Shown here: one piece after another, positions 29,239 through 31,218 of the stretch
Position numbering within the stretch: position 1 is the stretch's first letter
How the letters are laid out: every line of letters starts with the position of its first letter
Assembly: GCF_001542905.1 (NCBI RefSeq)
Contig: NZ_LOAJ01000001.1
Coordinates: 2,046,001-2,110,000 of the forward strand
Reading direction: 5' to 3'
From: Halorubrum aethiopicum
GTDB taxonomy: Archaea > Halobacteriota > Halobacteria > Halobacteriales > Haloferacaceae
Length of the DNA stretch: 64,000 nt
Translations under genes and position numbers: made by a program
The notes under the pieces: generated by a model
Told to the model about the DNA's origin: nothing
What the model saw: only the letters and a program-made list of their open reading frames with translations
Databases searched by the model: none

Positions 29239-30285
29239 ATGTCCACGGACGAGTTCATCGATATGCGGTCGGATACCGTCACGAAACCCTCCGAGGCGAT
29301 GCGGGACGCCGCCCGCGACGCCGAGGTCGGCGACGACGTGTACCGCGACGACCCGACGGTCAACGAGCTGGAGCGCCGCGCGGCCGAGGCCGTCGGCATG
29401 GAGGCGGCCCTCTACACGCCGAGCGGGACGATGGCGAACCAGATCGCGATCAACGTCCACACCGAGCCCGGCCAGGAGGTCCTCCTCGAGCGGGAGTCGC
29501 ACGTCTACCGCTGGGAGCTCGCGGGCGCGTCGGCGCTCTCGGGGCTCCAGACGCGGACGATCGACGCCGGCGAGCGGTGCGTCCCGACCGCGGAGGCGGT
29601 CGAGCGGGAGATCGTCGAGGAGGACCTCCACCGGCCGGGGACCGGCCTCCTGAGCCTCGAGAACACCCACAACTACCGCGGCGGGGTCGCCGTGCCGAAG
29701 GCGCGGCTCGACGCGGCCGCGACGGCCGCACACGACGCCGGCGTTCCGGTCCACCTCGACGGCGCGCGCGTGTTCAACGCGAGCGTCGCGCTCGAGGAGC
29801 CCGCGCCCTCGCTGCTCGAGGAGGTAGACAGCGTCACCTTCTGTCTCTCGAAGGGCCTCGGCGCGCCGGTCGGCTCGATCCTCGCCGGCGACGAGGACTT
29901 CATCGACGAGGCTCGGCGGGTTCGCAAGCTGTTCGGCGGCGGGATGCGACAGGCCGGCATGATCGCCGCGCCCGGCCTGCTCGCGCTCGAGAACGTCGAT
30001 CGCCTGGCGGAGGACCACGCGAACGCCGCCGCACTCGCCGCCGGCCTCGACGCGCTTCCGGGGGTCTCGGTTCCCGAACCGGACACGAACATCGTCGTCG
30101 CCGACACCGAGGCGGCCGGGATCGAGGCGAGCGACTTCGTCGAGGCCTGTACCGACGCCGGCGTCGGCTGCGGCGAGTTCGACACGTACACGACGCGGTT
30201 CACGACGAACCTCGGGATCGACGGCGAGGACGTCGACGACGCGATCGAACGGGTGAGCGAGGTCGTCGAGGAGCTGTCGGCGTAG
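29239..30285 (+). CDS. Low-specificity L-threonine aldolase
   Basis: The 348-residue PLP enzyme of fold type I cleaves threonine and allo-threonine to glycine and acetaldehyde, or other beta-hydroxy amino acids. The N-terminal DMRSDTVTKPSEAM is the family hallmark; the PLP-binding lysine is in FCLSKGLGAPVGS near residue 207, and the active-site HLDGARVFNA is present. Full length is normal. No pathway neighbour is evident: the flanking genes are a carboxypeptidase and a non-coding region. Confidence 0.95.
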   Translation: MSTDEFIDMRSDTVTKPSEAMRDAARDAEVGDDVYRDDPTVNELERRAAEAVGMEAALYTPSGTMANQIAINVHTEPGQEVLLERESHVYRWELAGASALSGLQTRTIDAGERCVPTAEAVEREIVEEDLHRPGTGLLSLENTHNYRGGVAVPKARLDAAATAAHDAGVPVHLDGARVFNASVALEEPAPSLLEEVDSVTFCLSKGLGAPVGSILAGDEDFIDEARRVRKLFGGGMRQAGMIAAPGLLALENVDRLAEDHANAAALAAGLDALPGVSVPEPDTNIVVADTEAAGIEASDFVEACTDAGVGCGEFDTYTTRFTTNLGIDGEDVDDAIERVSEVVEELSA

Positions 30286-30786
30286 ACCTGTCTCTTCGCT
30301 TCCCCCGGATCCGTCCGTCGGCGCGGTCGAATTCGCTTCTTCGAATATATTCCCGTCCGAAACGACTGGTGGCTGAGGAGTGCTTATAGAACGGCTATTT
30401 CGTGAGTGATCGAGGTGAGTAGAATGGGATCGTTGTTGGCGCGATGAACATCTCCAAAGCCCCAGTCGCGAGGACTCGATGCGCTCGCTGTGCTCCTCGG
30501 TCGCTCGTTTCACTCGCTCCCTGCGGTGCTTGCGTCGCGCGTCTTCGCCCTCGCGACTGCCCCTTTGAGTCCCACCCAACCGCCCCGCAACCGCACCTCA
30601 CGCCTCCCCAACCTCGCGATTCGCGCTCTCCGAGCACTCATCGCGTCCCTCGCGGGCGGTTCGCGGTCGCCTACGGCGACCACTCACCGGCGCGCCACCG
30701 CTCCGGCGATCGTTCACTCCTTCGCCTGTATCGACCGAAAGCCGTTCTGAACGTCTCACTCGCCGAGGATCCGGGCGGAGCCCTGC
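30286..30786. other. 500-base non-coding stretch with promoter-like and hairpin elements
   Basis: No credible gene is seen on either strand between the threonine aldolase and the membrane protein at 30787. The stretch contains a palindrome GAATATATTC at 30343-30352, a TATA-like GCTTATAG near 30382, the long imperfect hairpin at 30455-30567, and a pyrimidine-rich CGCTC/CGCC low-complexity run on to about 30720. Short open frames here have Arg/Ser/Pro-rich, non-haloarchaeal composition. It may be a dispersed intergenic repeat or encode a structured RNA. Confidence 0.6.
30455..30567. repeat. Imperfect 19-bp inverted repeat flanking a 75-base loop
   Basis: CAAAGCCCCAGTCGCGAGG at 30455-30473 pairs with CCTCGCGACTGCCCCTTTG at 30549-30567 at 16 of 19 positions; the mismatches are three adjacent bases in the middle. 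The intervening segment is rich in CGCTCG-type words. I recall a very similar sequence next to other Halorubrum genes, so it may be a dispersed repeat family. Confidence 0.6.
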
Positions 30787-31218
30787 TCACGTCGCGATCC
30801 ACATCAGCCAGACGTTCGAGCCGGTGAGGTAGAGCCCGACGGCGGTCAGGAGGACGGGCGGGAAATAATAGAGGAGGCCGTCGCCCTCCCGGGCTCCGAG
30901 GACGCTGATCCACAGCATGACGAGGTACACCGCGATCTTGAGCGCGACGAGCCCGGCGAGCCCGAAGGAGTCCAGCGCGAAGGCGACCACCGGGTTGGCC
31001 TCCTCGATGGCGGGGACGTACGTGAGGAAGGCGATCGTCGAGACGATGTCGCCGACCCCGTACGTCGACGTGGCGGCGATCCAGAGGCTGTAGAACTCCT
31101 CGGGCCGCCGGAGGTACGCCGGATGGCGTCGGGTCCGGTCGCGGGAGCGTGACACGTCGGTCCGTCGCCCGGAGGGCCCCTGAAGCTGTCGCTCCGCCGC
31201 CGGGGCGGACCGATCCAC
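30787..31218 (-). CDS. Small membrane protein, DUF5658-like
   Basis: The C-terminal 100 residues hold three hydrophobic helices, with FYSLWIAATSTYGVGDIVST, an EEANP motif before the second helix and a closing YLTGSNVWLM. The D-x-x-(S/T)T ... EANP(V) pattern resembles DUF5658 membrane proteins. The start is uncertain: the frame opens at a GTG at 31218, but an in-frame GTG at 31155 gives a more protein-like N-terminus, because the first 21 residues are Arg/Pro-rich. Function unknown. It is divergent from nth. Confidence 0.72.
   Translation of the reverse strand: MDRSAPAAERQLQGPSGRRTDVSRSRDRTRRHPAYLRRPEEFYSLWIAATSTYGVGDIVSTIAFLTYVPAIEEANPVVAFALDSFGLAGLVALKIAVYLVMLWISVLGAREGDGLLYYFPPVLLTAVGLYLTGSNVWLMWIAT

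Follow-up and report, generated by a model that had tools for sequence, protein, structure and literature searches.

The intergenic region downstream of a threonine-aldolase-like gene in the window (the whole stretch of 64,000 nucleotides of Halorubrum aethiopicum DNA analyzed here) probably holds one member of an interspersed repeat family, non-coding and structured, that extends across the haloarchaea; the family would be similar to bacterial REP/BIME elements in the way it works, though several times larger. The unit found across the class is a hairpin of 110-130 nt, M1, represented by a covariance model of 117 positions (R1). Copies of the family would spread only rarely, as folded single-stranded DNA or through RNA, with a mobilizing enzyme supplied in trans. 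They would be tolerated at the 3' ends of genes, and recombination between copies would preserve pairing while the sequence of the stem turns over.

Organization of the locus

The features of the region are summarized in Table 1. In Halorubrum, M1 is part of a larger core, in which a closing stem P1 (GATCG..GCGATG with CACCGC..CGATC) encloses both M1 and a second module of two hairpins, M2. Read on the minus strand, M1 starts with the 5' foot GGGTGGGACTCAAAGGGGC and ends with the 3' foot GGGGCTTTG; between them lie the two arms of a variable stem and, enclosed by these, an interior whose internal loops are purine-rich and conserved. The internal loops of M2 show conserved TC/TC, equivalent to GA/GA on the minus strand. 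An M2-like motif 3' of M1 was present in 10/164 motif hits, nearly all of these hits being from other genera. The minus-strand fold of positions 30365-30760 has a z-score of -4.15, with none of 100 shuffled sequences folding as well, compared to -1.71 for the plus strand.

Table 1. Features in and around the intergenic region, in window coordinates.
Feature	Position	Strand	Description
Upstream neighbor gene	29239..30285	+	Threonine-aldolase-like (named by eye); anchor for orthologous empty sites
Intergenic gap	30286..30786		Plus-strand gene ends at 30285, minus-strand gene at 30787; convergent neighbors
Left outer inverted end	30297..30312	+	Consensus GGCTCTGTTGAAATCC, degenerate in the window; one of an inverted pair, ends common to other elements
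Inverted pair	30298..30312 / 30767..30781		87% match
Palindrome GAATATATTC	30343..30352	.	Within the left terminal block, consensus TTCGGATATATTCTCGTCTGAAAC, common to other elements of the genome
TATA-like element	30383..30389		CTTATAG
Halorubrum core	30428..30711	- favored	Alignment of 40 own copies, RNAalifold, covariation ranking
M1, class-wide hairpin	30453..30577	-	R1 covariance model (cmsearch): 114.6 bits, E 3.5e-20, full model
Hairpin arms	30455..30473 / 30549..30567		19 nt, 84% complementary (16/19), spacing 75 nt; detected independently of R1
M2	30590..30690	-	CACCTCACGCCTCCCCAACC linker and hairpins P3 (~30616-30645) and P4 (~30658-30688)
Right outer inverted end	30767..30782	-	One of an inverted pair, ends common to other elements
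Convergent neighbor gene	30787..31218	-	Abuts the upstream gene directly in four relatives

A preliminary description of the window had proposed that these 500 bases lack a credible gene, and comparison of 75 copies agrees with this. Core lengths leave no fixed remainder on division by three (28/21/26 copies), and no single frame stays open over the whole core in more than 22 of the 75. As neither lengths nor frames are conserved, we reject a coding function, and the open reading frames listed within the gap are mechanical. The palindrome, the TATA-like element and the hairpin with 16 of 19 paired positions were all present as described. The stretch that had been labeled CGCTC-rich and of low complexity is instead the structured interior of the hairpin, and the reading of the palindrome as a promoter is not borne out; it sits in a terminal block that is also found in other elements.

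The region has no match to any Rfam 15 family at E values up to 1. A phage origin was dismissed, with no matching phage record, and chance or low complexity is ruled out by the copy number and by the reversed-pattern and slid-pair controls.

Structural constraint and folding strand

Across the class, the G-rich strand of M1 consists of GGGTGGGACTGAAAGGGGC, a variable stem, an interior containing AAGCACCGCAG and GAGGAGCGCAGCGAG, the returning stem and GGGGCTTTC. The feet are invariant, G-rich and unpaired, and they enclose a stem that is hypervariable but complementary: the second arm matches in 125/157 motif hits, which together contain 89 different stem pairs. For the alignment we used 52 copies, taken from 60 non-redundant copies of 100; L196, L207, L217, L255, L260, L280, L290 and L296 were left out because of their different interior. 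These eight loci retain the feet and the stem of M1 around an entirely different interior hairpin, and those for which a record title is given include Halorussus and Haladaptatus.

The preliminary description had suggested a covariance check of the hairpin. In the 52 copies, both partners have changed in 24 of 30 pairs, and 95.0% of the paired cells can pair, against 70.2% after shuffling and 30-46% with slid partners. Double-sided changes number 338 compared to 97.5 in shuffled alignments, and this was reached in none of 500 shuffles. The M1 hairpin is thus under strong structural constraint. When all column pairs of the own copies are ranked by covariation, the first 12 include 10 predicted helix pairs.

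It is the G-rich (minus) strand that folds. RNAalifold on 75 of the 76 near-full-length own copies (one over-long copy was left out) gives -203.5 kcal/mol for the minus strand and -176.5 kcal/mol for the plus strand. At pairs predicted for both strands, G.T exceeds A.C by 154 to 82 in the own copies and by 55 to 16 class-wide (p ~3e-6 each, values that are optimistic because the sequences are not independent), which indicates folding of the minus strand as RNA or as single-stranded DNA. These two forms are not separated by the excess, since in DNA, too, G.T pairs better than A.C. The earlier suggestion of a structured RNA gene therefore holds for the structure, by covariation; as to the RNA gene, the strand evidence fits RNA and folded single-stranded DNA alike.

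A stronger version of that suggestion, in which the copies are stand-alone non-coding RNA genes in multiple copies, with the G-rich strand transcribed, the internal loops binding a protein and mobility being secondary, is one that we consider unlikely. The strand-asymmetric tolerance of G.U, the invariant unpaired feet and the conserved TC/TC mismatches in two hairpins, tandem G.A when the minus strand is read, are all in line with it. Against it, there is no conserved promoter outside the copies, as the flanks vary by species, and the orientation in tandem gaps is unbiased; the pairing asymmetry would also be seen in DNA.

Distribution, inheritance and the outer block

The locus had been put forward as a possible dispersed Halorubrum repeat, and both the proposed copy-number check (about 100 recurrences in the own genome, matches in all 52 genomes of the genus) and our more detailed searches support this; the family is multi-copy and conserved, as opposed to a single copy without conservation. 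A sequence search of the source genome found at least 40 strong places, and a 17-base motif occurs at 46 forward and 57 reverse places, its reversed control at 2. With an HMM built from the core (nhmmer), 103 own copies were mapped, including 76 that are nearly full-length, and at least one further copy exists at C1:2948370. R1 yields 97 hits in 98 own loci. The 100 motif places listed all lie on contig C1 and none on C2 or C3; as C1 makes up 91.6% of the genome, this has a chance of 1.5e-4 under an even spread. Own copies are 58-92% alike, and the best pair (91.9%) and the median (71.1%, 75 copies) suggest that they are old, with no sign of a recent burst. Between ~1.52 and 1.91 Mb of C1 of the source genome (G000) there are few copies among those listed, and two TnpB genes lie inside; this is possibly a more recently acquired region.

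Dispersal extends well beyond what the preliminary description envisaged. The core is present in 52/52 genomes of the genus, each with at least one match. The Halorubrum form of the motif occurs at 7 to 189 places in all 30 congeneric genomes of the class sample (own genome included), at 73 places in G225 and at one or two places in seven of the other 211 genomes, and is thus abundant only in Halorubrum and one other genus. The variant motif GGCCCCTTTCAGTCC was found in 94/242 class genomes and 39/74 genera, at up to 67 places per genome; its reversed control gave 0 throughout. R1 matches 202/242 Halobacteria genomes and 64/74 genera (E <= 1e-4, no more than 15 candidates being scored in each genome), so that the repeat is not limited to Halorubrum.

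In the phylum sample, 37/246 genomes match R1, all from the own genome, the same genus, the same family or the same order; among 20 listed of the 209 non-matching genomes, 6 belong to the same family or order and 14 to the "same phylum". As the class and phylum searches yield counts that are capped or limited to exact motifs, copy numbers outside the own genome are lower bounds. An exact scan of 84,980 species genomes returned at least 120 stretches, and 80 among the matches listed are all from Halobacteria. Halobaculum, Haloarcula and Halorussus plasmids carry distant relatives; with a Haloarcula query, matches were found on 21 plasmid records, none with a gene listed beneath, though two of these records carry no annotation.

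The presence of the copy in the window is lineage-specific. It is absent in L060, L064, L065 and L066, where the same two flanking genes lie side by side, and gain in the lineage of the window is the simplest reading of these empty sites. Of the other 25 loci compared, 24 showed no copy and the second gene was not recognized there; in L078 there is a copy, but its context is different. No clear target duplication was seen when the window copy was compared with the four empty sites, but the ends and flanks have diverged. Some copies do persist at orthologous positions: 3/11 copies from other species are at sites common to the own genome (L048/L021, L049/L155 and L050/L045), suggesting that much of the inheritance is vertical, and the shared-site copy at L155 has decayed. 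For L048 and L021 the surroundings are ~94% alike, yet the stem and loop of M1 are largely different and still paired, as block exchange between copies would leave them.

The unit in the window lies within a larger block whose inverted ends resemble those of transposons, and the insertion probably rode on this block. The outer ends GGCTCTGTTGAAATCC and the GATATATTCT block, to which the palindrome belongs, also bound other elements of the own genome that carry different cargo. Such elements are L089 (G000 C2:31380-32205), L090 (C1:1764430-1764829), L091 (C1:1849407-1850236, continuing to 1850976) and L094 (C1:985691-986101), and their cargo includes ORFs that by eye look lipoprotein-like, an ORF of 70 aa, a cupin protein (PF07883) and one hairpin core, the last in L094, which combines the outer ends with the same core as the window. 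The family with these shared ends seems to be a carrier of small genes that has no transposase. Outer ends are recognizable in only ~10/103 own copies, and in most aligned copies of other species the flanks differ and the ends are mostly not recognizable. Since most copies lack recognizable ends and foreign flanks differ, we regard the core, above all M1, as what makes up the family, and the ends as one vehicle for it.

Flanks in other species have features of their own. In L050 (G036) a ~55-65 bp unit ending in CAAAGCCCCAGCCGCTCGGCTGTACG is tandem-repeated upstream of the core copy, and in L052, L053, L057 and L058, from other Halorubrum, TATA-like sequences unlike the own-genome flanks bracket the core (in L052, TTATAAATG before and CATTTATAAG after it).

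A search for the mobilizing enzyme in the own genome and the collected loci pointed to none of the known candidates. The own genome has no match to the Y1 transposase family PF01797, for which control genomes were positive, and a RAYT/Y1 origin in this genome was discarded. One TnpB-type motif was found in 1.5 Mb of collected loci, 1.5 kb from M1, and the four TnpB genes of the own genome are all far from any listed copy; with no linkage in either set, an IS605/TnpB end is ruled out. The outer ends of the window copy might be called IS6-like, but an IS6/IS240-type partner was not found, none of five transposase (PF13610) loci having the same ends.

The block could also derive from an insertion sequence in the manner of a MITE or PATE, with the hairpin as a mere passenger. 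The inverted ends at 30297-30312 and 30767-30782, shared by elements with different cargo, fit such an origin, and PATEs with palindromes and without target duplication have been reported for Haloquadratum, in the excerpted text of PMC3119063. We nevertheless find this doubtful: the hairpin is conserved class-wide while the outer ends are unrecognizable in most own copies and in most aligned copies of other species, TnpB linkage is absent in the collected loci, and a passenger would not be expected to show compensatory change throughout the class.

Genomic placement and relation to known elements

The own copies lie between genes. With a gene caller based on a simple coding score and trained on 29 ORFs of the window, 100 of the 103 own copies could be resolved, and all are intergenic, with none inside an ORF: 46 in convergent, 38 in tandem and 16 in divergent gaps. 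Nearby element-free gene pairs are 17 convergent, 49 tandem and 19 divergent, so that convergent gaps are enriched (46/100 versus 17/85, Fisher p 3e-4). In tandem gaps the two orientations occur 15 and 23 times, without bias. M1 occurs alone, as a face-to-face inverted pair or, in Halorubrum, with the second two-hairpin module. An inverted M1 partner was found 27-36 nt away in 36/157 motif hits, with pairs counted from both sides, in loci of other genera.

The convergent enrichment, together with the very stable predicted folds, could indicate a host-selected element at the 3' ends of genes, acting as a two-way terminator, an insulator or a protector of mRNA 3' ends between convergent genes. 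This appears quite improbable, as 38 of 100 placements are tandem and 16 divergent, a preference in orientation is absent, four relatives retain the convergent gene pair of the window without a copy, and the copy at the shared site L155 has decayed; avoidance of promoters alone could also produce the convergent bias.

An interspersed repeat family, the reading that we prefer, has its closest parallel in the REP/BIME elements of bacteria. In the excerpted text of PMC3733652, these GTAG- or CGTC-tagged elements are dispersed intergenic palindromes, many per genome and often in opposed pairs, with a preference for convergent and same-direction gaps, GT pairs in the stems and a fixed foot at one end. 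To the extent of that account, the family described here is similar in its many dispersed intergenic copies, its preference for convergent and same-direction gaps, its opposed M1 pairs in other genera, the G.T pairing in its stems and the possession of a fixed foot. In contrast, it is archaeal, measures 110-300 nt instead of 20-40 bp, carries no GTAG or CGTC tag but a G-rich foot at each arm (GGGTGGGACTGAAAGGGGC and GGGGCTTTC), and possesses a hypervariable stem, and the own genome lacks a RAYT-type Y1 transposase. On the basis of size, tags and transposase we do not regard it as a member of the REP/BIME group.

Among haloarchaeal repeats, the PATEs, MITEs and SMRs of Haloquadratum walsbyi are described, in the excerpt of PMC3119063, as transposase-free repeats that reach high copy numbers; some of them bear palindromes or terminal inverted repeats and lack target duplications. 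On this description, the absence of a transposase and the high copy number are shared with the family in the window. The Haloquadratum repeats are defined by IS-like ends within one species, and the conserved part of the family here is an internal hairpin found in 64 genera; M1 also differs from PATEs in having no linkage to IS605 genes.

The design of M1 also recalls the attC sites of integrons. In attC, a variable complementary stem lies between conserved ends and one strand folds. A site for site-specific recombination acting as a folded strand in the attC manner, with fixed feet and a variable stem, would account for the same design in M1, for the preference for one strand and for the exchange of a stem and loop block between fixed feet at an orthologous site, but it is highly improbable given that copies are single or in inverted pairs, in no cassette arrays, and that the conserved ends differ from those of attC.

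The feet themselves may have a further role. A GAAAG/CTTTC helix has GGGTGGG before it and, after it, a GGG/GGG internal loop that hardly varies. Both 5' G-tracts are kept in 83/92 own motif hits, the first tract is present in 20/20 matches from loci selected without it, and the 3' tract is nearly invariant in the 52 copies. M1 thus has the four conserved G-tracts expected of a G-quadruplex, GGG, GGG and GGGG in the 5' foot and GGGG in the 3' foot, and from their sequence these could join as a quadruplex across the base of the hairpin. The haloarchaeal cytoplasm is rich in K+, at molar concentrations. The class-wide foot GTGGGACTGAAAG (~30563-30577 of the window, minus strand) may also resemble the end GTGGGATTGAAGC of haloarchaeal CRISPR repeats. 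Thousands of potential quadruplex sequences are reported for Haloferax volcanii, in the excerpt of PMC12873603, and on that account the candidate quadruplex of M1 is plausible, to that extent only.

Taken further, M1 might be a new kind of mobile nucleic acid, in which a cassette of stem and loop is swapped between feet that close into a K+-stabilized G-quadruplex, and the quadruplex plus hairpin would be the mark by which a haloarchaeal recombinase or RNA-binding protein recognizes the units in order to copy, move or diversify them. We put this forward as a speculative and rather unlikely possibility.

Neither the hairpin family nor its motif strings were found in the open-access literature searched, and the M1 family seems to be undescribed to date, even though it occurs in most genera of a well-studied archaeal class and the motif reaches 189 copies in a single genome. 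With this family, archaea have a counterpart of REP/BIME elements, and its copies form a natural series of double mutants in which selection on folding can be studied. M1 is also a specific candidate for the combined folding of quadruplex and hairpin at the molar potassium concentrations of such cells. Finally, copies of M1 may account for some of the short "hypothetical ORFs" in GC-rich genomes.
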